A DNA stretch of 40,808 nt, taken from an uncultured Burkholderiales bacterium. Lineage in GTDB: Bacteria; Pseudomonadota; Gammaproteobacteria; Burkholderiales; Burkholderiaceae_C. The DNA is taken from assembly GCA_903865035.1 (NCBI GenBank), contig CAIPII010000244.1:1-40808 (forward strand). The letters are read 5' to 3'. Both the position numbers and the translations under genes were made by a program. The notes under the pieces were generated by a model. The model ran no database searches, was not told the DNA's origin, and worked only from the letters and a program-made list of their open reading frames with translations. Of this stretch, positions 19,376 to 33,243 are shown one piece after another; position 1 is the stretch's first letter, and the number at the start of each line of letters is the position of its first letter.

Positions 19376-19399
19376 TGGAGGGTCATGAAACACCCTCCA
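19376..19399. terminator. Candidate hairpin terminator between convergent guaC and the DUF4118-like gene
   Basis: TGGAGGGT-catgaaac-ACCCTCCA, 8-bp stem; no strong U-tract. Confidence 0.45.
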
Positions 19400-19482: not shown

Positions 19483-20322
19483 TCAAGCCTCTTGCAGTGG
19501 CGCACCCACCGAATCAGGGCTCTGCAAATGGGCCTGAGGTGAAATGGAAAACACCACCGATTTATTGCCATCGATTTGAATCGGGGACAAGCGTCCCAAG
19601 ACAAGCTCACCGCTGCCTTTGGAGAAGGGCCAATTGAATGAAAACTCAACGTCAGAGCCTGCTTCTAGACACAGATTCAAATAGCCCAAAACCGCAGGTT
19701 GTTGTTTGTGTGAGAACAAATTGAGAAAAGTCCCCTGAGCCTCTTGCCTGACTGAGCCCGGAATAAGTTCAAGACCACTCTCGAAGTAGCAAAGGATTTC
19801 AAAGGGATTGGCCCAAAGGATGGGCAGGTCCTCACTTGTGGTCATGAGCGCGATGAGCTTTTCGTACTGAGAGACCTCCCTCTTCAAATTGAGCAAGTGA
19901 TTCTCTGACCTCACGTACAACTTGTAATTGGTGTTGCTCGCCTTGAGCAAAATGGAGGCCACATAGCCTGAGCGCTGCAAATATTCAATCATGATGACAC
20001 ACATCATCATGGTGGACAAGTTGACAGCAATCACGTACAGATCGGACTCTGAAGGGATCGCAAAGGAGTAGTAAGGCTTGATGAAGAAAAAGAAACCGGC
20101 GAATGTGCCCAAGATGGCTGAGAGCAACCCGTAGACCCAACCAAAATAAAAAGCACTCACGATCACGGAGATGTAGAACAACTGAAAAGGCAAGTTGGGC
20201 TGAACCATCTCGTGGATGAGCATTCGAAAGCCTACGGCCAGTGCAGTCAAAGCAAAGCAAGAGAGCACGGCCAGCCACAGAGGCTTTGACTTGGACCACT
20301 CAGAGGCATTGTGTAGTAACAT
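19483..20322 (-). CDS. DUF4118 (KdpD N-terminal transmembrane)-like membrane protein with coiled-coil and possible PAS-like C-terminus; no kinase domain
   Basis: Four TM segments in KdpD/DUF4118 style (LPFQLFYISVIVSAFYFGWVYGLLSAILGTFAGFFFFIKPYYSF), helical linker, then LPILWANPFEILCYFESGLELIPGSV...VEFSFNWPFSKGSGELVLGRLSPIQIDGNKSVVFSIS; no H-box or ATPase motifs; start at MLLHNASEW. Confidence 0.65.
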   Translation of the reverse strand: MLLHNASEWSKSKPLWLAVLSCFALTALAVGFRMLIHEMVQPNLPFQLFYISVIVSAFYFGWVYGLLSAILGTFAGFFFFIKPYYSFAIPSESDLYVIAVNLSTMMMCVIMIEYLQRSGYVASILLKASNTNYKLYVRSENHLLNLKREVSQYEKLIALMTTSEDLPILWANPFEILCYFESGLELIPGSVRQEAQGTFLNLFSHKQQPAVLGYLNLCLEAGSDVEFSFNWPFSKGSGELVLGRLSPIQIDGNKSVVFSISPQAHLQSPDSVGAPLQEA

Positions 20323-20328
20323 AAAAAC

Positions 20329-21195
20329 ATGATAACCCAAAGCCACATCGACCTCAAATCTGGAGCACACGGCGTGCTGCTCTTGCACGGTCTATCGGGC
20401 AGCAATCTTGAAGTCTCACGCTTGGCTCAGCGACTTCACCTTGAAGGGTTCACCGTCTTTGCACCCAACATCCATGGCTACTGTTTTGAGACAGAGTGCA
20501 CGCCCTATACCCAGTGGCTGGACTCATGCTTTGAGGCTTACCTCAACTTGAAACAAGAATGCGACACGGTCTCGGTGTGCGGACTCTCCATGGGAGCAAC
20601 TTTGACGCTGGCGTTGGCCCAACACTTTGATGACGTCAACTCCATCGCCTTGCTGGCCTCTTGCATGGACTATCAAGGATGGGCTGTACCTTGGTACCAG
20701 GTGTTCTTGCCCCTGCTCAACTTTCTTCCCATTCGGCTTGACATTGATTTTCCTGAAGAGCACCCCTTTGGCGTCAAGAATGCTGAAATCAGATCCAAAA
20801 TGCGACACGCTTTGCTGCGAAAAAAATACGCTGAAATCGGGGGCAACTCCATTCCGCTCAACAAAATTCAAGAGGGGTTGAAACTCATCAACCAAACCAA
20901 AAAGTACATCGACTCGGTGCACTGCCCGGTCTTGGCCATCCATGCCATTGAGGATGAAATTTGCAGCCTCAAAGGTGCTGAGGAAATGTTCAACAAAATC
21001 AATTCCAAGAAGAAAGAGTTCATCTACTTGGACGACAGCTACCACTTGATCACCATCGACAATCAAAGGAACTTGGTCTACTCTGAGACGACACTCTTCA
21101 TGAAAGACTGTGTCAATCAAAAAGTGGGGATTGATTACTTCAAAAAGCCCACATTGATCCATCCCGAGGCCATCCGATTGGAGGGTCGCTCATGA
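20329..21195 (+). CDS. Alpha/beta hydrolase (carboxylesterase/monoacylglycerol lipase-like)
   Basis: VLLLHGLSGSNLEVSRLAQRL, nucleophile elbow VCGLSMGATLTLAL (GxSxG), late Asp (IHAIEDEICS) and His (DSYHLITID). Confidence 0.85.
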   Translation: MITQSHIDLKSGAHGVLLLHGLSGSNLEVSRLAQRLHLEGFTVFAPNIHGYCFETECTPYTQWLDSCFEAYLNLKQECDTVSVCGLSMGATLTLALAQHFDDVNSIALLASCMDYQGWAVPWYQVFLPLLNFLPIRLDIDFPEEHPFGVKNAEIRSKMRHALLRKKYAEIGGNSIPLNKIQEGLKLINQTKKYIDSVHCPVLAIHAIEDEICSLKGAEEMFNKINSKKKEFIYLDDSYHLITIDNQRNLVYSETTLFMKDCVNQKVGIDYFKKPTLIHPEAIRLEGRS

Positions 21196-21587
21196 GTCTA
21201 TTCAAATCTCAGAGTGTCTTCAGGTGCCCCAGTGATCTCAACGAAATTGAGTTGATCAATCACGTTCACAAGATCCGATCGCTCTCCAAAGCGCACAGCA
21301 TCACTGGACTCATCACCTACCGAGCCAGCTTGTTTGCTTGCCATGTGGAAGGTCGAATGGCAAACATCGAAAAATTCAAGGCTTTTTTGATGTTGAACTA
21401 TGAATTGCTTGATGAGTCAACACAATCGATTTCAACTCGAAAATACCCTGGTGTGCACATGAATTTTGTGAACGACGACTTCCCCATCGTCAACGACCCC
21501 ATCATCGACTGGTCCATTGAGGACAAGAAGTACAACTTCCCCTACGAACTCTTGGGTAAGATTCTTGAGTTGAATAAAAAAGCGTGA
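21192..21587 (+). CDS. BLUF-domain-like small protein, apparently lacking canonical flavin/photocycle residues
   Basis: SLSKAHSITGLITYRASLFACHVEGRMANIEKFKAFL matches the BLUF core pattern (ITGLLxY..xFLQxLEG...); ATGA overlap with the upstream hydrolase gene. Confidence 0.65.
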   Translation: MSLFKSQSVFRCPSDLNEIELINHVHKIRSLSKAHSITGLITYRASLFACHVEGRMANIEKFKAFLMLNYELLDESTQSISTRKYPGVHMNFVNDDFPIVNDPIIDWSIEDKKYNFPYELLGKILELNKKA

Positions 21588-21588
21588 A

Positions 21589-21626
21589 AAAAGGGTCTGC
21601 ATCACTTTCGTGGTGCAGACCCTTTT
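21589..21626. terminator. Bidirectional Rho-independent terminator between the BLUF-like gene and acnB
   Basis: AAAAGGGTCTGCATCAC-TTTC-GTGGTGCAGACCCTTTT, 17-bp stem with one G-U pair, A-run before and T-run after. Confidence 0.92.
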
Positions 21627-21698: not shown

Positions 21699-24284
21699 TC
21701 AGACCTTTGCTGCTACTTTTTGATAGCTCTCGATCTGGTCAAAATTCAAGTACTTGTAAATTTCGGCTCCCTTGGAGTTGATCACACCAATGTCCGTCAA
21801 ATACTCTTCGCGAGTTGGGATTCGACCCAATTTTGAGCAAATGGCCGCCAACTCAGCAGAGCCCAAATACACAAAGGTGTTCTTGCCCAAACGGTTGGGG
21901 AAGTTGCGCGTGCTGGTTGACATCACGGTGGCACCTTCCTTGACCTGAGCTTGATTGCCCATGCACAAAGAGCATCCGGGCATCTCCATGCGAGCACCTG
22001 CATTGCCAAACACGCCGTAGTGACCCTCTTCGCTCAATTGCTCTGCATCCATTTTGGTTGGAGGAGCCATCCAAAGCTTAACGGGAATATCCCTCTTGCC
22101 TTCGAGCAACTTGGAAGCGGCCCTGAAGTGTCCAATGTTGGTCATGCATGAACCAATGAAAACCTCGTCGATTTTGGAGCCAGCCACATCGGAAAGCGTT
22201 TTGGCATCATCTGGATCGTTGGGGCAGCAAACAATAGGCTCCACAATTTCGGCCAAATCGATTTCAATGACAGCAGCGTATTCCGCGTCTTTGTCAGCTT
22301 GCAAAAGATTGGGTTTTTCAAGCCAAGCTTCCATGGCCTTGATGCGACGCTCAATGGAGCGCGCGTCTTGGTAACCCTGAGCGATCATGTTCTTCAAGAG
22401 CACGATGTTGCTGTGCAAATACTCGATCACAGGCGCTTTGTCCAAGTGCACTGTGCAACCAGCGGCTGAGCGCTCAGCAGAGGCATCGGACAACTCAAAC
22501 GCTTGCTCCACCTTCAGCTCGGACAAGCCTTCGATTTCCAAAATGCGGCCAGAGAAAATATTCTTCTTGCCCTGCTTCTCAACGGTCAAAAGACCTTGCT
22601 TGATGGCATACAAAGGAATGGCGTGCACCAAATCTCTGAGCGTGACACCGGGCTGCATCTTGCCTTTGAAGCGAACGAGCACAGACTCAGGCATGTCCAG
22701 AGGCATCACACCCGTTGCAGCCGCAAAAGCGACCAAACCGGAACCTGCTGGAAAGCTGATGCCAATGGGGAAACGTGTGTGTGAATCTCCTCCTGTACCC
22801 ACTGTATCGGGCAAGAGCATGCGGTTGAGCCAAGAGTGAATGATGCCGTCTCCAGGCTTCAAAGAAATTCCACCCCTGTTGCTCATGAAGTCAGGCAATT
22901 CGTGGTGCATCTTCACATCGATGGGCTTGGGGTAAGCTGCGGTGTGGCAAAAGGACTGCATCACCAAATCTGAAGAGAATCCTAGGCAAGCCAAGTCTTT
23001 CAATTCGTCCCTGGTCATGGGACCTGTGGTGTCTTGTGAGCCCACGGAAGTCATCTTGGGTTCACAGTAAGTACCGGGCAATACGCCTTGACCTTCTGGC
23101 AAACCACATGCACGACCGACCATTTTTTGAGCCAATGTGAAGCCTGTTTTCTTGGCAGCAGGCGTGGCAAAAGTTCTAAAGAGCGTGGATGAGGGAAGTC
23201 CCAGTGCTTCACGTGCTTTGCCAGTCAGTGCGCGACCAATGATCAAGGGAATGCGTCCACCCGCTCTCACTTCATCAAAGAGCACCTCACTCTTGATGGT
23301 GAACTCAGCAATCACTTTGCCGTCCTTGAGCGCCTTGCCTTCGTAGGGTCTGAGCTCAATCACATCTCCCATGTGCATTTGACTCACATCCAACTCGATG
23401 GGCAATGCTCCAGCATCCTCCATGGTGTTGTAGAAAATAGGTGCAATGTTGTTGCCCAAACACACGCCACCAAAGCGCTTATTGGGCACATAAGGAATGT
23501 CTTCACCCGTGAACCAAAGCACTGAGTTGGTCGCAGATTTGCGGCTCGATCCTGTTCCCACCACATCACCCACATAAGCGACCAAATGACCTTTGGCTCT
23601 CAAGTCCTCGATGAACTTGATGGGACCGCGCTTGCCGTCTTCCTCAGGGGTGATGCCATCTCGTTTGTTTTTGAGCATGGCCAAAGCATGCAATGGAATG
23701 TCAGGACGACTCCACGCGTCGGGGGCTGGAGAGAGGTCATCGGTGTTGGTCTCGCCCGTCACCTTGAACACAGAGAGTGTGATGCTTTGTGGCACTTCGG
23801 GGTGACGTGTGAACCACTCACCTTCGGCCCATGACTTCATCACCTCTTTGGCAAAGGTATTGCCCTTGTCGGCTTTTTCTTTCACGTCGTGGAATTGATC
23901 AAACATGAGCAATGTGACTTTGAGGCCCTCTGCGGCCTCTTGCGCCACTGACTTATCTGAATCGTCGAGCAAGTCAATCAAAGGCGTCAAGTTGTAGCCA
24001 CCAAGCATGGTGCCCAGCAATTTGGTTGCGTGCACGCGTGTGAGCAAAGGCGTGGTCTCTTTGCCGTGAGCCACTGCAGCCAAGTAAGAGGCTTTGACTT
24101 TGGCTGCATCGTCCACACCAGCGGGCACGCGGTGTGTGAGCAACTCCACCAAATGGGCTTCCTCGCCTTTTGGGGGAGCTTTGAAGAGCTCGACCAAAGA
24201 TGCTGTTTGCTCAGCCGATAAAGGCAAGGGTGGAATCCCAAGCGCTTTTCTTTCGTTGACATGTTCTTGATAGGCTTTTAGCAT
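21699..24284 (-). CDS. acnB: Bifunctional aconitate hydratase 2 / 2-methylisocitrate dehydratase
   Basis: MLKAYQEHVNERKALGIPPLPL, GDSHTRFPIGISFPAGSGLVAFAAATGVMPLDMPESV, FIGSCMTNIGHFRAASKLL, GCSLCMGNQAQV. Confidence 0.97.
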   Translation of the reverse strand: MLKAYQEHVNERKALGIPPLPLSAEQTASLVELFKAPPKGEEAHLVELLTHRVPAGVDDAAKVKASYLAAVAHGKETTPLLTRVHATKLLGTMLGGYNLTPLIDLLDDSDKSVAQEAAEGLKVTLLMFDQFHDVKEKADKGNTFAKEVMKSWAEGEWFTRHPEVPQSITLSVFKVTGETNTDDLSPAPDAWSRPDIPLHALAMLKNKRDGITPEEDGKRGPIKFIEDLRAKGHLVAYVGDVVGTGSSRKSATNSVLWFTGEDIPYVPNKRFGGVCLGNNIAPIFYNTMEDAGALPIELDVSQMHMGDVIELRPYEGKALKDGKVIAEFTIKSEVLFDEVRAGGRIPLIIGRALTGKAREALGLPSSTLFRTFATPAAKKTGFTLAQKMVGRACGLPEGQGVLPGTYCEPKMTSVGSQDTTGPMTRDELKDLACLGFSSDLVMQSFCHTAAYPKPIDVKMHHELPDFMSNRGGISLKPGDGIIHSWLNRMLLPDTVGTGGDSHTRFPIGISFPAGSGLVAFAAATGVMPLDMPESVLVRFKGKMQPGVTLRDLVHAIPLYAIKQGLLTVEKQGKKNIFSGRILEIEGLSELKVEQAFELSDASAERSAAGCTVHLDKAPVIEYLHSNIVLLKNMIAQGYQDARSIERRIKAMEAWLEKPNLLQADKDAEYAAVIEIDLAEIVEPIVCCPNDPDDAKTLSDVAGSKIDEVFIGSCMTNIGHFRAASKLLEGKRDIPVKLWMAPPTKMDAEQLSEEGHYGVFGNAGARMEMPGCSLCMGNQAQVKEGATVMSTSTRNFPNRLGKNTFVYLGSAELAAICSKLGRIPTREEYLTDIGVINSKGAEIYKYLNFDQIESYQKVAAKV

Positions 24285-24339
24285 TTGAAAATTCTCCTGT
24301 TGAAATTGAGAGTGAATGATGGGGTGTTTTGAAAAAGGT

Positions 24340-24984
24340 TCAGCGCTGTTCATCTGCGCCATTGACTGCGCTCAAGAGTTGCACTGGCGGTGAGTTGCGC
24401 TGGCGGATTGCAACTTGTTCTTGTTCTTTGCTCTTGCATTCATCGACCATTCTTTGTCCAAGTCGCGTGTTAAAGAGCATGGACTTGTTGGCCAATTGAA
24501 TCCAAACGGCTCCTTGCTTTGCATCTTCAAGCCGGATTGCACCAGTGTGCGAAAGCGTAGGGCTCAATGCGTAGCGGTTGCTCTTGAAGAACAAAGTAAA
24601 TTGTCCTGGAGCATTGGCAACTGGATTAAGAGTCACTGACTGGCCCAACTCACAAGGCATGCGACCCCATTGCACTTGTTCGGAGATGGCCATCAACTCT
24701 GGACTGAGCTCAGGTGCAACAGGCTCCTCAATGGGGGTTGCAGGAACGGGTTTGGGCAACGCATGCTGAGCATGCTGTGAAGACTTGTTGACCTGGGTGT
24801 GCGTCTTGATCGCTTGAGCGACTTGTGGGCGTGAGACCGTTTGACTCTCTTTGAGGCTTTGAGTTTGAGCAAAGCCCGCTTGCAACCAAGACCAAGCCAC
24901 GAAAAACAAAAGGACCGTGCCCAGTAAAGAATTGAAGGGCTTAGGCAAGACTCCATTGAAAAAAGAATTTATCCATGGGCTCAT
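24340..24984 (-). CDS. Hypothetical envelope protein (N-terminal TM/signal, Pro-rich linker, Cys-containing C-terminal domain)
   Basis: MSPWINSFFNGVLPKPFNSLLGTVLLFFVAWSWLQAGFAQ, then domain CELGQSVTL...YALSPTLSHTGAIRLEDAKQGAVWIQLANKSMLFNTRLGQRMVDEC; ATGA overlap with upstream citE-like gene. Confidence 0.7.
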   Translation of the reverse strand: MSPWINSFFNGVLPKPFNSLLGTVLLFFVAWSWLQAGFAQTQSLKESQTVSRPQVAQAIKTHTQVNKSSQHAQHALPKPVPATPIEEPVAPELSPELMAISEQVQWGRMPCELGQSVTLNPVANAPGQFTLFFKSNRYALSPTLSHTGAIRLEDAKQGAVWIQLANKSMLFNTRLGQRMVDECKSKEQEQVAIRQRNSPPVQLLSAVNGADEQR

Positions 24985-25985
24985 GCAGCGACCTCGCTTT
25001 CGTGGACAAACCAACTTTGCACTTTTTGATCCAAAGCTTTTCCCGTGGCATGAGCTCTTTCTAAAACTTGCCAAAAGAAACGATAGCTTGCACGGTCGTG
25101 CAAGTGCCCCTCGAATCGAATAGGACCCCAATTTGCAGCCGCCGCGCTCAATATGATCTCGCTGGCTTGTGCCACCTCGACTTCAGAGGGTGAAAATGCC
25201 TCGACGATGGGACGGATTTGATCGGGGTGAATGCTCCACATGCGGGTGTAGCCCAGGGATTGAGAGGCCTCTTGGGCCCAGCGCTTCAAAGCACTCGTGT
25301 CTTCGATCTCGGTCACCACACAATGCGAGGGCGTTTTAGCATGAGCATGACATGCACTGGAGAGCATTAGCTTGGCGCGAAGCACCAAGGGGTGCTTGAA
25401 CTGCCCCTCACCGGTCATGGCCCAAGAAGGAATAGCACCTGCGTGTGAGGACACAAAATCCATGAGCCCAAAACTAAGCGATTGAACGCTGGGATGAGAT
25501 GCAATTTCAAAAGCGTGTTCAATGGCTTTGGGAGACTCGATCAAGGCGTGAATGGCCAGGTCTTTGAAACCCAACTCGCTGATCAAGCTGTGCGCTTTGT
25601 CCACATCTTGGAGCGACTCCACTTTGGGAATCATCACGTGTCTGAGCTTTGCGCCCGCTTGACCCACAATGATGCGAAGGTCTTCCTCAAAATGAGCATG
25701 GTCCACGGCGTGCACTCTCACCGAAACCCGTGCATCTTGAGCGCTCTCCAAAACCAAAGCAGCAACCCGTTGTGCGTGATCCTTCTCCAGCCCAACAGGC
25801 GCTCCGTCCTCGCAATCGAGCGTGACATCGAAGACACAGGTGCCGAGCTCCTCGGTCATTTGGGCCTGCAAGAGCAGGCTTTTTTTCATCCGAGCTTCTA
25901 CACCACTGTAGTGATCACACACAGGCAAGGCTTGCCTGGCCGCTTGAGGCCCGAGCAAGACTTGCCGTGGATGAATTTCGCTCAC
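24981..25985 (-). CDS. HpcH/HpaI aldolase / citrate lyase beta (CitE-like) family protein
   Basis: VFDVTLDCEDGAPVGLEKDHAQRVAALV, RVSVRVHAVDHAHFEEDL, MIPKVESLQDVD, ALIESPKAIEHAFEIASHPSVQSLSFGLMDF. Confidence 0.92.
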   Translation of the reverse strand: MSEIHPRQVLLGPQAARQALPVCDHYSGVEARMKKSLLLQAQMTEELGTCVFDVTLDCEDGAPVGLEKDHAQRVAALVLESAQDARVSVRVHAVDHAHFEEDLRIIVGQAGAKLRHVMIPKVESLQDVDKAHSLISELGFKDLAIHALIESPKAIEHAFEIASHPSVQSLSFGLMDFVSSHAGAIPSWAMTGEGQFKHPLVLRAKLMLSSACHAHAKTPSHCVVTEIEDTSALKRWAQEASQSLGYTRMWSIHPDQIRPIVEAFSPSEVEVAQASEIILSAAAANWGPIRFEGHLHDRASYRFFWQVLERAHATGKALDQKVQSWFVHESEVAA

Positions 25986-26029
25986 TGAGTGACTCTCCTT
26001 GTGCGCCCCTTGGAACGCAGGATTGATGT

Positions 26030-27016
26030 TTAGATCAGGTGAGCAACACCGGCTTGCTCGTCTGTCAATTCTTTGAGTGTTTTGTCAATGCAAGTTTGAC
26101 TGAACGCATCGATGGGCAAACCCTCAACCACGTGATACTGTCCACCTTCGCAAGTGACGGGAAAGCCAAACATCACGTCTTTGGGAATGCCATACCAACC
26201 ATTGGAAGGAATACCCATGGTGACCCAATGGCCGTTGGTGCCAAGTGCCCAGTCGTGCATGTGATCAATGGCTGCATTTGCAGCAGAGGCAGCTGAGGAC
26301 AAACCACGTGCGTCAATGATGGCCGCACCGCGCTTGCCTACAGTTGGCAAGAAAACGTTTGCATTCCATTCTTGGTCATTGATCATGTCCTTCACAGAGG
26401 CTCCACCAATGGTTGCAAAGCGGTAGTCTGCGTACATTGTGGGAGAGTGGTTGCCCCAAACACAAAGTTTTTCCAAGTCAGCAACTGCGTGACCTGTTTT
26501 GGCAGCAATTTGACTGGCCGCACGGTTGTGATCCAAACGCAGCATGGCAGTGAAGTTCTCACGCTTCAAATCTGGAGCGCTCTTCATTGCAATGTAGGCA
26601 TTGGTGTTGGCTGGATTGCCCACCACCAAGACGCGAACATCGCGACTGGCTGAGGCATTCAAAGCCTTGCCCTGTGCTGTGAAAATTTGTGCATTGGCGG
26701 CCAACAAATCAGCGCGCTCCATACCAGGACCGCGAGGTCTTGCACCCACCAACAAAGCGTAATCTGTGTCTTTGAATGCTTCTTTGGGGTCAGAGTAAGC
26801 ATGCATGTCAGCAAGCAATGGGAATGCGCAGTCCTCAAGCTCCATCATCACGCCCTTGAGCGCTTTTTGGGCTTTCTCATCAGGAATTTCCAAGAGTTGC
26901 AGGATCACGGGCTGATCAGCGCCCAACATCTGACCCGATGCAATTCTGAACAACAATGCATATCCAATTTGCCCAGCTGCCCCTGTGACTGCAACGCGAA
27001 CAGGCTTTTTACTCAT
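26030..27016 (-). CDS. mdh: Malate dehydrogenase
   Basis: [88 protein letters not shown]. Confidence 0.97.
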
Positions 27017-27114
27017 GGAAAACTCCCTCAATGAATGTGTATGAATGAAAAAATGATGGTTTATTGAAATTGACCAACTAGTGTAACTCCGAAAGGCCAA
27101 GAAATGAGCCTCTT

Positions 27115-27132
27115 ATGTCTTATAAAAGACAT
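27115..27132. promoter_or_regulatory. Candidate operator (perfect inverted repeat) in the mdh/gntR divergent region
   Basis: ATGTCTT-ATAA-AAGACAT, 7+7 bp perfect dyad between divergent mdh and a GntR-family regulator. Confidence 0.55.
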
Positions 27133-27173
27133 GTTAATGCAGATTACAATAGCGACACTTAGATTTCCAAACC

Positions 27174-27992
27174 TTGTTTGTTCCCCTGTCTTTCATGCAA
27201 GATCGCGCCGCCAGTTCTGCCCCTCTCGAGCCCAACGATTCACAAGTTGTTTCTTTGGGTGACAAGGTGCCTCTTTTTAGCCCGCTTTACCAGCAAATCA
27301 AGAGTTTGCTCTTGAAGGGGCTGGAAAAGGGAGACTGGAGGCCAGGGGAGATGATCCCAAGTGAGATGGAGCTCGCCCAACGCTTTCAAGTCAGCCAAGG
27401 CACGGTCAGAAAAGCCATAGATGAGCTCTCCCAAGAAAACTTACTGGTACGCAAACAAGGCAAAGGCACTTATGTGGCCACCCATTCAGAGCACGGCGCG
27501 CAATACCGTTTTTTGAAACTCGTGGCCAACCCAGAAAAGCCTCAATACATTGGCCCAGCCAAGCGAGAAATCCTCTGGTGCAAGCTCTCCTCGCCCAGCC
27601 CCTCAGATGCACAAGCGCTCCAACTCAAACCAGACTCCAAGGTTTGGCACATTCGACGCATACTGTCCTTTGCCTCCTTGCCCACCATTTTGGAGGACCT
27701 GTGCCTGCCAGGAGACGCATTTGTGGGACTGAGCGCCCAAGAACTCCAACACAATCAGGGTCCAACCTACGCATTGTTCGAGACAAAATACGGTGTGCGA
27801 ATGGTGCGAGCACAAGAGCAAATCAGAGCCACCATGCCCACCCAAGAGGTGTGCCAACTGCTCAACATTGAACCCAACATTCCCTTGCTAAGCGTTGAGA
27901 GAACCTCCTTCACTTACCAAGACGTGCCCATGGAAATCCGTCGCGCCCTTTACCGAACAGATCACCATCACTACAAAAATGAATTGAACTAG
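27174..27992 (+). CDS. GntR family transcriptional regulator (UTRA domain, HutC-type)
   Basis: Winged-helix LYQQIKSLLLKGLEKGDWRPGEMIPSEMELAQRFQVSQGTVRKAIDELSQENLLVRKQGKGTYVA; C-terminal UTRA-like region; start could be 27195. Confidence 0.93.
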   Translation: MFVPLSFMQDRAASSAPLEPNDSQVVSLGDKVPLFSPLYQQIKSLLLKGLEKGDWRPGEMIPSEMELAQRFQVSQGTVRKAIDELSQENLLVRKQGKGTYVATHSEHGAQYRFLKLVANPEKPQYIGPAKREILWCKLSSPSPSDAQALQLKPDSKVWHIRRILSFASLPTILEDLCLPGDAFVGLSAQELQHNQGPTYALFETKYGVRMVRAQEQIRATMPTQEVCQLLNIEPNIPLLSVERTSFTYQDVPMEIRRALYRTDHHHYKNELN

Positions 27993-28127
27993 TACTTAAA
28001 TACACAACCCCTTTTTGAAAGACCTTTTTTTAACTTATGATCCTTCTTTCATCGATACTTGTTGCATTGCAATAGAATTTTGATGTTCGAAGGACGCAAT
28101 CACCTTCCTCACCATGAAAGAGTTTTT

Positions 28128-28559
28128 ATGACCGAGATCCACAAAAAACGCCCAGAATTCAGAAACATCAACGCGTTCAAAGACCTGACGACCTACCGCT
28201 TGCCATTGGCAGGATGGGTGTCGATTTTGCACCGCGCCTCTGGCGCCATGATGTTTTTACTCTTGCCTTTCATCATTTGGCTCTTTGACACGAGCTTATC
28301 GTCAGAGATTTCCTTCACCCGCTTTAGCTCAGCCTTCATCGTGGGCATTGGATTTTGCCCCGCTTGGTTCGTCAAATTGGTCGTTTTGGCTTTGATTTGG
28401 GCTTATTTGCATCATTTGAGCGCAGGTGTTAGACACTTGTACATGGACACCCATCATGCCGTGAGCAAAGAGTTTGGCAAGTCCTCTGCCATCGTGACAC
28501 TCGCCATCAGTTGGATCCTCACCATTGGCTTGGGTGCCAAATTATTTGGCTTGTATTGA
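28128..28559 (+). CDS. sdhC: Succinate dehydrogenase cytochrome b556 subunit
   Basis: RPEFRNINAFKDLTTYRLPLAGWVSILHRASGAMMFLLLPF, HHLSAGVRHLYMDTHH; first gene of sdhCDAB. Confidence 0.95.
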   Translation: MTEIHKKRPEFRNINAFKDLTTYRLPLAGWVSILHRASGAMMFLLLPFIIWLFDTSLSSEISFTRFSSAFIVGIGFCPAWFVKLVVLALIWAYLHHLSAGVRHLYMDTHHAVSKEFGKSSAIVTLAISWILTIGLGAKLFGLY

Positions 28560-28622
28560 GTCCATCAAACCCATTGCTCAAACAACACTCGCTCACAAAC
28601 AGATTTCAGGAGTTCAATCAAC

Positions 28623-28988
28623 ATGTCAGTTAATTACGGATCAAAACGCGTCGTCGTAGGCGCTCACTACGGATTGAAAGATTGGTTGGCACAGCGCGTG
28701 ACCGCGGCCTTGATGGCGCTGTTCACACTCGTGCTGCTGCTTCAAATCATTTTCACAAGCGGCGACATGGGCTATGACAAGTGGGCCTCTATCTTCAATG
28801 CCGAGTGGATGAAGACTTTGACGTTCACCGTTATTTTGTCCTTGGCCTATCACGCCTGGGTTGGCATGAGAGACATTTGGATGGATTACATCAAGCCCGT
28901 TGGCATTCGTTTGCTGTTACAAATTTTCACCCTGGTTTGGCTCGTTGGTTGCGCTGGCTGGGCAATTCAAGTTCTTTGGAGACTCTAA
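28623..28988 (+). CDS. sdhD: Succinate dehydrogenase membrane anchor subunit
   Basis: GLKDWLAQRVTAALMALFTLVLL, AYHAWVGMRDIWMDYIKP. Confidence 0.95.
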   Translation: MSVNYGSKRVVVGAHYGLKDWLAQRVTAALMALFTLVLLLQIIFTSGDMGYDKWASIFNAEWMKTLTFTVILSLAYHAWVGMRDIWMDYIKPVGIRLLLQIFTLVWLVGCAGWAIQVLWRL

Positions 28989-28991
28989 GTC

Positions 28992-30788
28992 ATGACCACT
29001 TCACATCAAATCGCTCGCAGAAAATTTGACGTTGTCATCGTGGGCGCAGGCGGCTCAGGCATGCGTGCGTCCTTGCAGTTGGCCCGTGCGGGTCTGAACG
29101 TTGCTGTTCTCTCAAAAGTCTTCCCCACTCGCTCACACACTGTGGCGGCTCAAGGCGGCATTGGCGCCTCTTTGGGCAACATGTCTGAGGACAATTGGCA
29201 CTATCACTTCTACGACACGGTCAAAGGCTCTGACTGGCTTGGCGACCAAGATGCCATCGAGTTCATGTGCCGTGAAGCACCCAAAGTGGTCTATGACCTG
29301 GAACACATGGGCATGCCTTTTGACAGAAATCCAGACGGCACCATTTATCAGCGCCCCTTTGGTGGTCACACAGCCAACTACGGCGAAAAGCCAGTCCAAA
29401 GGGCGTGCGCAGCAGCTGACCGCACTGGTCATGCCATGCTCCACACCCTGTACCAACAAAACGTCAAAGCCAAGACAAGTTTCTTTGTCGAATGGATGGC
29501 TTTGGACATCATCCGTGACCACGAAGGCGACGCCGTTGGCGTCACAGCCATTGAGATGGAAACGGGCGAAATTTACGCCTTAGAAGCCAAAACCGTGTTG
29601 CTTGCAACCGGTGGTGCAGGCCGTATTTTCCAAGCCTCAACCAACGCCTTCATCAACACTGGAGACGGCTTGGGCATGGCCGCCAGAGCAGGCATTGCGC
29701 TGGAAGACATGGAATTTTGGCAATTCCACCCAACAGGCGTGGCGGGTGCCGGCGTGTTGCTCACCGAAGGCTGCCGCGGTGAAGGCGCGATTTTGCTCAA
29801 CTCTGAAGGCGAAAGATTCATGGAGCGCTATGCGCCCACATTGAAAGACTTGGCCCCCAGAGACTTTGTCTCTCGCTCCATGGACCAAGAGATCAAGGAA
29901 GGACGCGGCTGCGGACCCAACAAAGATTACGTGCTCTTAAAGCTCGATCACTTGGGCGCAGACACCATCATGAAACGCTTGCCCTCGGTCTATGAAATTG
30001 GACTGAACTTTGCCAACGTTGATGTCTCCAAGACACCCATCCCAGTGGTTCCCACCATTCACTACCAAATGGGTGGTATTCCCACCAACATTTATGGACA
30101 AGTGGTTGAGCAAACACAGTTCTCGCACTCCTCAGCCATCAATGGCTTGTATGCTGTGGGCGAATGCTCTTGTGTGTCTGTGCACGGTGCAAACCGCTTG
30201 GGCACCAACTCACTCTTGGATTTGTTGGTGTTTGGACGCGCAGCGGGCAACCACATTGTGGACTTCAATTTGAAAAACAAAGCCCACAAACCTTTGCCCA
30301 AAGATTTTGCAGACCTCACTTTGTCTCGCTTGGCTCGCCTTGAGAGTCAAGCCAACGGCGAATACGCACAAGTGGTGGCCGACGATTTGCGCCAAGCCAT
30401 GCAACAACATGCTGGTGTGTTCAGAACTCAAGCCGTCATGGACGAAGGTGTTGAGAAAATCGCAGCCCTCAGAGAACGCGTCAACCACATTGGTCTCAAA
30501 GACAAATCCAAAGTCTTCAACACCGCTCGCATCGAGGCCTTGGAGGTCGACAATTTGATTGAAGCCGCACAAGCGACCATGGTCTCTGCTGCTGCTCGCC
30601 ACGAAAGCCGTGGCGCTCACACCGTGGATGATTACGGTGACACACCCGCTCACCCCAACGGACGCAACGACGAAGAATGGCTCAAACACACCCTGTGGTA
30701 CAGCGAAGGCTCACGCTTGAGCTACAAACCCGTGAACATGAAGCCACTCACGGTCGAGAGCATTGAGCTCAAAGTCAGAACCTTCTAA
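28992..30788 (+). CDS. sdhA: Succinate dehydrogenase flavoprotein subunit
   Basis: VVIVGAGGSGMRASLQLARAGLNVAVLSKVFPTRSHTVAAQGGIGASLGN, HPTGVAGAGVLLTEGCRGEGAIL, CSCVSVHGANRLGTNSLLDLLVFG. Confidence 0.98.
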   Translation: MTTSHQIARRKFDVVIVGAGGSGMRASLQLARAGLNVAVLSKVFPTRSHTVAAQGGIGASLGNMSEDNWHYHFYDTVKGSDWLGDQDAIEFMCREAPKVVYDLEHMGMPFDRNPDGTIYQRPFGGHTANYGEKPVQRACAAADRTGHAMLHTLYQQNVKAKTSFFVEWMALDIIRDHEGDAVGVTAIEMETGEIYALEAKTVLLATGGAGRIFQASTNAFINTGDGLGMAARAGIALEDMEFWQFHPTGVAGAGVLLTEGCRGEGAILLNSEGERFMERYAPTLKDLAPRDFVSRSMDQEIKEGRGCGPNKDYVLLKLDHLGADTIMKRLPSVYEIGLNFANVDVSKTPIPVVPTIHYQMGGIPTNIYGQVVEQTQFSHSSAINGLYAVGECSCVSVHGANRLGTNSLLDLLVFGRAAGNHIVDFNLKNKAHKPLPKDFADLTLSRLARLESQANGEYAQVVADDLRQAMQQHAGVFRTQAVMDEGVEKIAALRERVNHIGLKDKSKVFNTARIEALEVDNLIEAAQATMVSAAARHESRGAHTVDDYGDTPAHPNGRNDEEWLKHTLWYSEGSRLSYKPVNMKPLTVESIELKVRTF

Positions 30789-30813
30789 TATCTGTTTCTC
30801 ATCGGAGTAATTC

Positions 30814-31518
30814 ATGCTTAAAAGAACTTTCAAAATCTATCGCTACGATCCCGATAAGGACACCAAGCCCTACATGCAAACCATTGAGATCGAACTCACT
30901 GGTCACGAGAGAATGTTGCTTGATGTGCTGATGAAATTAAAGCAAGTGGATCCATCCATCTCCTTTAGACGTTCATGCCGTGAAGGCGTTTGCGGCTCAG
31001 ACGCCATGAACATCAACGGTAAAAATGGACTCGCTTGTTTGACCAACATGCTCAGCTTGCCTGAGACCATTGTTCTCAAACCCTTGCCAGGCTTACCCGT
31101 CATTCGCGATTTGATCGTTGACATGACACAGTTCTTCAAACAATACCACTCCATCAAGCCCTACCTCGTGAACGAGACCCAAGCGCCAGAGAAAGAGCGC
31201 TTGCAGTCCCCCGAGGAGCGCGATGAGCTCAATGGTTTGTACGAGTGTATTTTGTGCGCGAGCTGCTCAACGAGCTGCCCCTCTTTTTGGTGGAACCCCG
31301 ATAAATTTGTGGGCCCTGCGGGCTTGCTGCAAGCTTATCGCTTCATCGCAGACAGCAGAGATCAAGACACTGCAGGTCGACTCGACAATTTGGAAGACCC
31401 TTATCGCCTCTTCAGATGCCACACCATCATGAACTGTGTTGACGTATGCCCCAAGGGACTCAATCCAACACAAGCCATCGGCAAGATCAAAGAGCTGATG
31501 GTGCGCAGAGCGGTCTAA
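30814..31518 (+). CDS. sdhB: Succinate dehydrogenase iron-sulfur subunit
   Basis: SFRRSCREGVCGSDAMNINGKNGLACLT, ECILCASCSTSCPSFWWN, RCHTIMNCVDVCPKGLNPT. Confidence 0.98.
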   Translation: MLKRTFKIYRYDPDKDTKPYMQTIEIELTGHERMLLDVLMKLKQVDPSISFRRSCREGVCGSDAMNINGKNGLACLTNMLSLPETIVLKPLPGLPVIRDLIVDMTQFFKQYHSIKPYLVNETQAPEKERLQSPEERDELNGLYECILCASCSTSCPSFWWNPDKFVGPAGLLQAYRFIADSRDQDTAGRLDNLEDPYRLFRCHTIMNCVDVCPKGLNPTQAIGKIKELMVRRAV

Positions 31519-31542
31519 TCGTTTCGTCAAGCCCAGCCTCCC

Positions 31543-31893
31543 ATGCCCAACGAAGCCCTCTTTATCAACGATGACTTTTTGCTCGGTCTCGAGCCTGAGT
31601 CGCTCTTGGGCGAGAGGGAGCTGAGCAAACTTCGTTGGCGCTGTCGCAGAGGTTTGCTTGAAAACGATCTGAAAATTGAGGCTTACTTCAAGCGCTTTAC
31701 AAACGGTCTCACCGTCAAAGAGGCCAAAGCGCTTTATGATTTAATGGACCTCTCAGACAATGATTTAATGGATTTGCTTTTGCAAAGAAACGACCTTCCA
31801 GCCTCACTCGACAGTGAGGACAGGAGAGCTGTTTTGGCTCAACTCAGAATGAGTACCCTTGAGCCCAGCGCCTCCACCCCCCTCACTTGTTAA
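31543..31893 (+). CDS. sdhE: FAD assembly factor SdhE family protein
   Basis: LSKLRWRCRRGLLENDLKIEAYFKRF, between sdhB and gltA (RGxxE motif present). Confidence 0.9.
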   Translation: MPNEALFINDDFLLGLEPESLLGERELSKLRWRCRRGLLENDLKIEAYFKRFTNGLTVKEAKALYDLMDLSDNDLMDLLLQRNDLPASLDSEDRRAVLAQLRMSTLEPSASTPLTC

Positions 31894-31932
31894 CCCTTCT
31901 ATTCGTTGATCAATTTTTAAGGAGCCCTGACC

Positions 31933-33243
31933 ATGAACCTCGCCAATTACAAGGCCACCATCTCTTTCTCCAACGGCGCGCCTAGCTTTGAGATGCCGGT
32001 CTACTCTGGCTCCATCGGCCCAGATGTGGTGGACATTCGCAAACTCTATGGTCAAACTGGCTTGTTCACCTACGATCCAGGCTTTTTGTCGACAGCCTCC
32101 ACCGAGTCGGGCATCACCTACATCGATGGCGACAAAGGTGAGTTGCTCTATCGCGGCTACCCCATTGAGCAGTTGGCCACAGAGTGCAATTACCTTGAGA
32201 CCTGTTACTTGCTCACCAAAGGTGAATTGCCCAACGCCCAACAAAAGGCTGAATACACCCATCTCGTGACCCAGCACACCATGGTCAACGAGCAAATGCA
32301 CTTTTTCTTGCGTGGCTTTAGAAGAGATGCACACCCCATGGCTGTGATGACTGGATTGGTGGGTGCACTCTCTGCCTTCTATCACGACAGCACAGACATC
32401 AACAACCCAGAGCACCGTGAAATCTCTGCCATTCGTTTGATCGCCAAGATGCCCACGTTGGTGGCCATGGCCTACAAATACAGCATTGGCCAACCCTTCA
32501 TGTACCCCAGGAACGACCTGAGCTATGCAGGAAACTTCCTGCGCATGATGTTTGGCAACCCTTGCGAGGAATACAAGGTCAACCCCGTGCTCGAGCGCGC
32601 ATTGGACCGTATTTTCATCCTCCACGCCGATCACGAACAAAATGCGTCAACCTCAACCGTTCGTTTGTGCGGCTCATCTGGCACCAATCCTTTTGCTGCC
32701 ATTGCAGCTGGTGTGGCTTGCCTTTGGGGCCCTGCACACGGAGGAGCCAACGAAGCATGCTTGAACATGTTGGGCCACATTCAAGCCAACGGTGGTGTTG
32801 AGAAAATTGGCGAATTCATCTCTCAAGTCAAAGACAAAAACTCCACTGTTAAATTGATGGGCTTTGGTCACCGTGTTTATAAAAACTATGACCCCAGGGC
32901 CAAATTGATGCAAGAGACCTGTGATGAAGTGCTCCAGGAATTGGGCCTTGAGAACGATCCGCTCTTCAAGTTGGCGAAAACATTGGAGAAAATCGCGCTT
33001 GAGGACGACTACTTCGTTTCTCGCAAACTCTACCCCAACGTTGACTTCTACTCTGGCATCGTGCAACGCGCCATTGGCATTCCAGTGAACATGTTCACCG
33101 GCATCTTTGCACTGGCCAGAACAGTGGGTTGGATTGCTCAGTTGAACGAAATGATTGCCGATCCTGAGTACAAAATTGGCCGTCCAAGACAGCTCTTCAC
33201 CGGCTCACCACGCCGCGATGTGCACCCCATTGCCAAGCGCTGA
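31933..33243 (+). CDS. gltA: Citrate synthase (type II)
   Basis: [97 protein letters not shown]. Confidence 0.98.

Follow-up and report, generated by a model that had tools for sequence, protein, structure and literature searches.

An alpha/beta hydrolase gene and a gene for a DUF4118 membrane protein are kept together across at least six Burkholderiales families, and they form the core of a locus that we identified in a 40,808-nucleotide contig of an uncultured Burkholderiales bacterium (contig CAIPII010000244.1; henceforth, the window), part of an assembly of 2.38 Mb. A third gene, encoding a BLUF-derived (pseudo-BLUF) protein, is an add-on, being present in only 5 of the 21 genus loci that were read in detail (window included) and hence not essential to the core. 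We infer, with roughly even confidence, that the locus is an acyl-lipid/envelope module with a divergent hydrolase/DUF4118 core and a non-photoactive BLUF-derived partner. A literature search with most subscription journals outside its coverage returned no published description of this set of three genes. The first-pass annotation of the window had taken the trio for a self-contained cassette that combines a membrane sensor, a hydrolase, and a BLUF-fold protein; the cassette reading is right, and light sensing is the part of it to drop.

The locus occupies window positions 19483-21587, where three intact open reading frames lie between guaC, the product of which is of the IMPDH/GMP reductase type, and acnB on the opposite side (Table 1). 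The membrane protein, the hydrolase, and the small protein were all confirmed as described in the first-pass annotation, together with the two housekeeping neighbors, the ATGA overlap (at 21192-21195), and a hairpin on either side. A listed GTG start at 20388 was rejected for the membrane gene because the frame would then run into the hydrolase gene, and the ATG was used instead. The hairpin between the pseudo-BLUF gene and acnB, to which zero shuffled sequences compare in folding, is likely a bidirectional terminator. Downstream, a TCA-cycle cluster extends over window positions 21699-33243 (acnB, an HpcH/HpaI-family lyase, malate dehydrogenase, succinate dehydrogenase, and citrate synthase).

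Table 1. Coordinates of the features of the locus, in window positions
Feature	Position	Strand	Remarks
Hairpin after guaC	19376..19399	plus	-13.5 kcal/mol, z -2.6
DUF4118 membrane gene	19483..20322	minus	279 aa from ATG 20322
Gap between divergent start codons	20323..20328	none	six bases
Promoter-like site for membrane gene (candidate)	20329..20357	minus	TTGAGG-N17-TATCAT-N6-ATG, inside hydrolase coding start
Alpha/beta hydrolase gene	20329..21195	plus	288 aa
BLUF-derived (pseudo-BLUF) gene	21192..21587	plus	131 aa; ATGA overlap with hydrolase stop
Hairpin with A-run/T-run, pseudo-BLUF gene to acnB	21589..21626	none	about -30.6 kcal/mol, z -7.4

Of 84 genus genomes, 22 encode a stand-alone orthologue of the membrane protein (E at most 3.1e-12); in each of them a hydrolase orthologue adjoins the membrane gene. 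The two genes are adjacent in every one of the 21 genus loci, in several different surroundings that vary by lineage (guaC/acnB, MgtC/MipA, a PmbA-like gene, a ketosynthase, a FeoB-like GTPase, and others, some of them named from sequence only). No stand-alone membrane protein was found among the family genomes sampled outside the genus. An order-wide sample gave seven best matches outside the family (E 1.9e-43 to 1e-22), drawn from five other Burkholderiales families, and each of the seven has a hydrolase neighbor, divergent in L137, L138, L139, and L140 and in tandem in L136, L141, and L142; at the four weakest order-wide matches, a hydrolase does not adjoin. Hydrolase adjacency in five other families implies that the pairing is much older than the genus. 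Grouping the genes as one system, previously a matter of gene arrangement only, thus gains the support of co-occurrence for the hydrolase and membrane homologues, whereas recurrence of the complete trio is confined to the few loci that carry the BLUF-like gene.

Acyl-lipid and envelope context of the hydrolase

The hydrolase matches Hydrolase_4 with 71.1 bits against a cut-off of 27 (Pfam), and the best solved relatives of its profile are thermostable monoacylglycerol lipases and Est30. S87, D209, and H239, which are invariant in 17 hydrolase sequences, form a putative catalytic triad; profile score and Ser-Asp-His set together place the protein among the Hydrolase_4/monoacylglycerol lipase-like enzymes and bear out its initial assignment as a GxSxG alpha/beta hydrolase. 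With thermostable monoacylglycerol lipase and the Est30 carboxylesterase (PDB: 3rli and 1tqh) it shares the sequence profile, the GxSxG nucleophile, and the Ser/Asp/His residues, but it differs from them in having a fixed membrane-protein partner and ACP/ketosynthase neighbors. The gene is under purifying selection, with a dN/dS of 0.045 in comparison with L048, for which synonymous sites are near saturation.

Of 21 relatives of the hydrolase that occur elsewhere in the family without the membrane gene, 13 have genes for an ACP and a beta-ketoacyl synthase directly alongside (Pfam-confirmed on examples), and the pair itself is found with ACP and ketosynthase in L058, L064, L136, and L137; in most loci of the genus, that of the window among them, the two are not next door. 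In 14 of the 21 genus loci, and in L136 and L137 as well, a gene for a MipA/OmpV outer-membrane protein is found beside the pair or close by. This family is a common one, and its gene is not always oriented the same way with respect to the pair. Taken together, the ACP-ketosynthase and MipA/OmpV associations point to a probable role in acyl-lipid and envelope chemistry. The hydrolases of the ACP-ketosynthase-hydrolase mini-operons of Burkholderiales belong to the same family as the window copy (E 1e-45 to 1e-76), which differs in having neither ACP nor ketosynthase alongside. Such mini-operons are widespread in the family (L134:2807-5255, L135:4343-6916, L148-L155, L157, L161, and L166), and no published description of them was found within our partial coverage of the literature.

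In such an acyl-lipid/envelope module, the lipase/thioesterase-like hydrolase would act, by cleavage or transfer, on an acyl ester or thioester that a dedicated ACP and ketosynthase help to make, and the small DUF4118 protein of the inner membrane would either tie the hydrolase to the membrane or report the state of the membrane to it. The product or signal might concern the outer membrane, as the MipA/OmpV neighbor suggests, and the pseudo-BLUF, which is translationally coupled to the hydrolase here, would most likely be a light-independent partner or regulator of the enzyme.

The same pair could also act in regulation without lipid chemistry, with the DUF4118 protein as a small-molecule or ion sensor that gates a detoxification or catabolic esterase. 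Alpha/beta hydrolases of the Hydrolase_4 type act on many substrates and are frequently general esterases, DUF4118 domains occur as components of sensors, and a patchy spread (22/84 genus genomes) fits an accessory detoxification or niche trait; however, an ACP-ketosynthase association, seen in 13 of 21 relatives and at four loci of the pair, is unexpected for a detoxifying esterase, and we consider this account possible but doubtful.

The BLUF-derived third protein

A working photoreceptor behind the hydrolase would make the locus a blue-light signalling cassette, in which light perceived by the BLUF-like protein would govern the hydrolase and the membrane protein would be an additional sensor. 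The small protein is a true BLUF homolog, since a profile built from the five pseudo-BLUF sequences finds BLUF proteins of solved structure (E 6e-8), and its relatives in L049 and L051 score 70.3 and 69.1 bits against BLUF (PF04940), far over the cut-off of 25, and keep the Tyr and Asn residues; the window protein, however, reaches only 17.3 bits (Pfam). Its description as BLUF-like therefore holds for homology but not for the Pfam score, and among the profile searches that had been proposed, those for DUF4118 and Hydrolase_4 came out over the cut-off and the one for BLUF below. The key BLUF residues (Tyr21, Asn45, Gln63, and Trp104 in AppA numbering) were compared in an alignment with 14 ordinary BLUF proteins, all of which keep these four flavin-switch residues. 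At the Y/N/Q/W positions, the window protein has S/S/C/V, the L048 protein S/A/C/V, and the L049, L050, and L051 proteins Y/N/H/Y; that is, the Gln is replaced (by C or H) in all five locus proteins, and the Tyr, Asn, and Trp are lost as well in the window and L048. Over the homologous scaffold of about 95 residues that it has in common with the short BLUF photoreceptors BlsA, AppA BLUF, and PixD, the window protein lacks all four residues, and it falls outside the BLUF photoreceptors on two counts, its Pfam score and its flavin-switch residues. The tyrosine, glutamine, and tryptophan positions of BlsA are essential for light-regulated motility (PMC6695109). The loss of the flavin-switch residues makes it very unlikely that the third protein works as a BLUF or as a normal blue-light receptor.

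The pseudo-BLUF gene always lies directly behind the hydrolase gene where it occurs (window and L048-L051), and its absence from the other 16 loci speaks against a light cassette, an explanation that we regard as improbable. No LitR-type light operator (TRTACAN12TGTAYA) was found across the 21 loci. Normal BLUF proteins abound in the genus, with 75 of its 84 genomes encoding them, and the window's genome encodes at least two complete ordinary ones with all flavin residues kept (L001, L002, and L003; G000 contigs C171, C128, and C165), which makes it likely that normal blue-light sensing is present elsewhere in the same cell.

In comparison with L048, the pseudo-BLUF has a pN/pS of 0.127/0.669 and a dN/dS of about 0.08, with synonymous sites near saturation. 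By this measure it is a maintained protein under purifying selection that has lost the switch, with an apparent half-way state in the sister genomes. The locus offers a graded natural sequence (Y/N/Q to Y/N/H to S/S/C), in one gene neighborhood, by which a photoreceptor scaffold passes into a presumably non-photoactive protein. A predicted model of the BLUF-like protein, made from a two-sequence alignment, was unusable (pLDDT 39.7).

The stand-alone membrane protein and relocation of the trio

The membrane protein matches DUF4118 (PF13493) over residues 16-117 with 46.8 bits against a cut-off of 28.4, as do 17 of 17 family members (Pfam), and its hydropathy peaks span residues 18-112, in agreement with what is expected of a four-helix DUF4118 domain; the DUF4118-like four-helix region proposed for it is thus well founded. 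DUF4118, the transmembrane domain of KdpD, is still classed by Pfam among domains of unknown function, and stand-alone DUF4118 membrane proteins now gain a partner and a testable chemical context. Since the best PDB match is KdpD (PDB: 2ksf, E 0.00048), the protein might be the remnant of a KdpD-like or other DUF4118 sensor kinase, but this is very improbable: no HisKA or HATPase match was found in the protein (Pfam), the reading frame stops after 279 aa, no close relative was seen with HisKA/HATPase downstream, and the DUF4118 matches in other genera of the family are clearly weaker and lie in open frames of 402-2234 aa (i.e., of kinase-like lengths). What it has in common with KdpD is the four-helix membrane domain, with a significant Pfam score; it lacks the kinase domains, which places it outside the KdpD-type sensor histidine kinases and agrees with the earlier remark that it has none, as well as the KdpD N-terminal domain, and it carries an MxIKNxKxW-like motif of its own. 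Rather than the truncated remnant of a longer kinase that the first-pass annotation had allowed for, the protein belongs to a conserved stand-alone family found, with its hydrolase neighbor and its motif, in several Burkholderiales families.

Invariant in the family are M1, N5, W9, R33, P83, Y84, D94, E113, R117, K127, and N141, and the MxIKNxKxW-like motif is conserved at the N terminus. We rejected an origin of this motif as a by-product of promoter overlap, because members outside the genus retain the motif although their starts are free of overlap, which argues for conservation at the protein level. Family members are 151-287 aa long (about 150-290 aa), and their tails align poorly. The window protein has a tail of about 150 residues that is weakly PAS-like: no PAS profile matches it (Pfam), PAS_3 is found in 4 of 16 family tails with a best E of 0.0079, and the best PDB match is the ARNT PAS protein with an E of 0.19, so that the PAS-like tail suggested before is weakly supported. 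Four members are only 151-157 aa long and consist of the four-helix domain and little else, which casts doubt on the label "sensor"; the membrane and DUF4118 parts of the earlier description stand, and the sensor role is a putative label. A predicted model from a two-sequence alignment (pLDDT 41.5) was too poor for use.

Gene order provides evidence on how the trio came to its present site. In L049, L050, and L051, a hydrolase paralogue is followed by a PLD-like gene, MgtC, and then the BLUF, hydrolase, and membrane genes; MipA comes next in L049 and L051, and in L050 the contig runs out at this point. The window's genome carries on contig C179 (L147, 1765-4991) a row made up of a second hydrolase of the family, a PLD-like gene, MgtC, and MipA, with MgtC and MipA adjacent and without the trio, which in this genome is located at guaC|acnB; the L048 genome has MipA and the hydrolase paralogue at matching spacing on another contig. 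In G240 and G224, no insertion separates guaC from acnB. The simplest reading would be a single en-bloc relocation of the trio in the window/L048 lineage. Chance adjacency of three unrelated genes, to which the rarity of the BLUF-like gene in the set might lend something, has next to no probability given this movement as a block, and for the hydrolase/membrane pair it is refuted by adjacency kept in 21 of 21 genus loci with varied surroundings and in seven other loci. The notion of a self-contained cassette hence holds in that the genes co-occur and relocate together, but its core is limited to the pair. At guaC|acnB, two relatives (G251 and G258) hold a different, mostly ABC-transporter-like gene group (a six-gene set, L127:1976-8065 and L128:1891-7958), which suggests a recurrent insertion site.

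Head-to-head starts and embedded control sequences

The gap between the start codons of the pair measures 6 bp in the window and L048-L051 and 5 bp in L058 and L064; in the remaining 14 of the 21 loci the two codons overlap within one CATG. Such spacing leaves no room for separate promoters. Synonymous codon conservation peaks at the junction in both genes (16 loci of the 5-bp and CATG classes). With one near-duplicate removed (15 loci), the top rank goes to the opening 27 codons in the hydrolase (of 266 windows) and to the opening 13 in the membrane protein (of 247). It should be noted that codon constraint at gene starts is common. Alignment codon 22 of the hydrolase is TTA in all loci of the 5-bp and CATG classes, as compared with 7 per cent TTA among leucines there. 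At codons 20-27 in L052-L067, some 63 bp from the start of the hydrolase gene, a TGATGTTACATGG block is embedded that hardly varies; it is nearly palindromic (ATGT-T-ACAT) and fits none of the promoter models tried.

A consistent sigma-70 promoter was found neither for the hydrolase gene nor, among the CATG-class loci, for the membrane gene. A sigma-70-like sequence, TTGAG[AGT]-N17-TATCAT-N6-ATG, lies antisense to the hydrolase start in all five loci with the 6-bp gap, which represent only two lineages; it includes an ATA codon, which accounts for 3-6 per cent of isoleucines, and would predict a leaderless mRNA for the membrane gene. Because about one such site is expected in the region by chance (1.5 in shuffles), its weight lies in its conservation and position.

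A more speculative proposal, which we put forward tentatively and rate as unlikely in its entirety, is that a BLUF photoreceptor became a flavin-free regulator of a membrane-coupled acyl hydrolase via the Gln-to-His intermediate of the sister genomes and that the two genes of the core, whose starts overlap or nearly touch and whose promoters would each lie within the coding sequence of the other, act as a transcriptional switch in which expression of one excludes that of the other. The junction itself provides a clear case of divergent bacterial genes with overlapping start codons in which a putative embedded control sequence is visible in synonymous sites.
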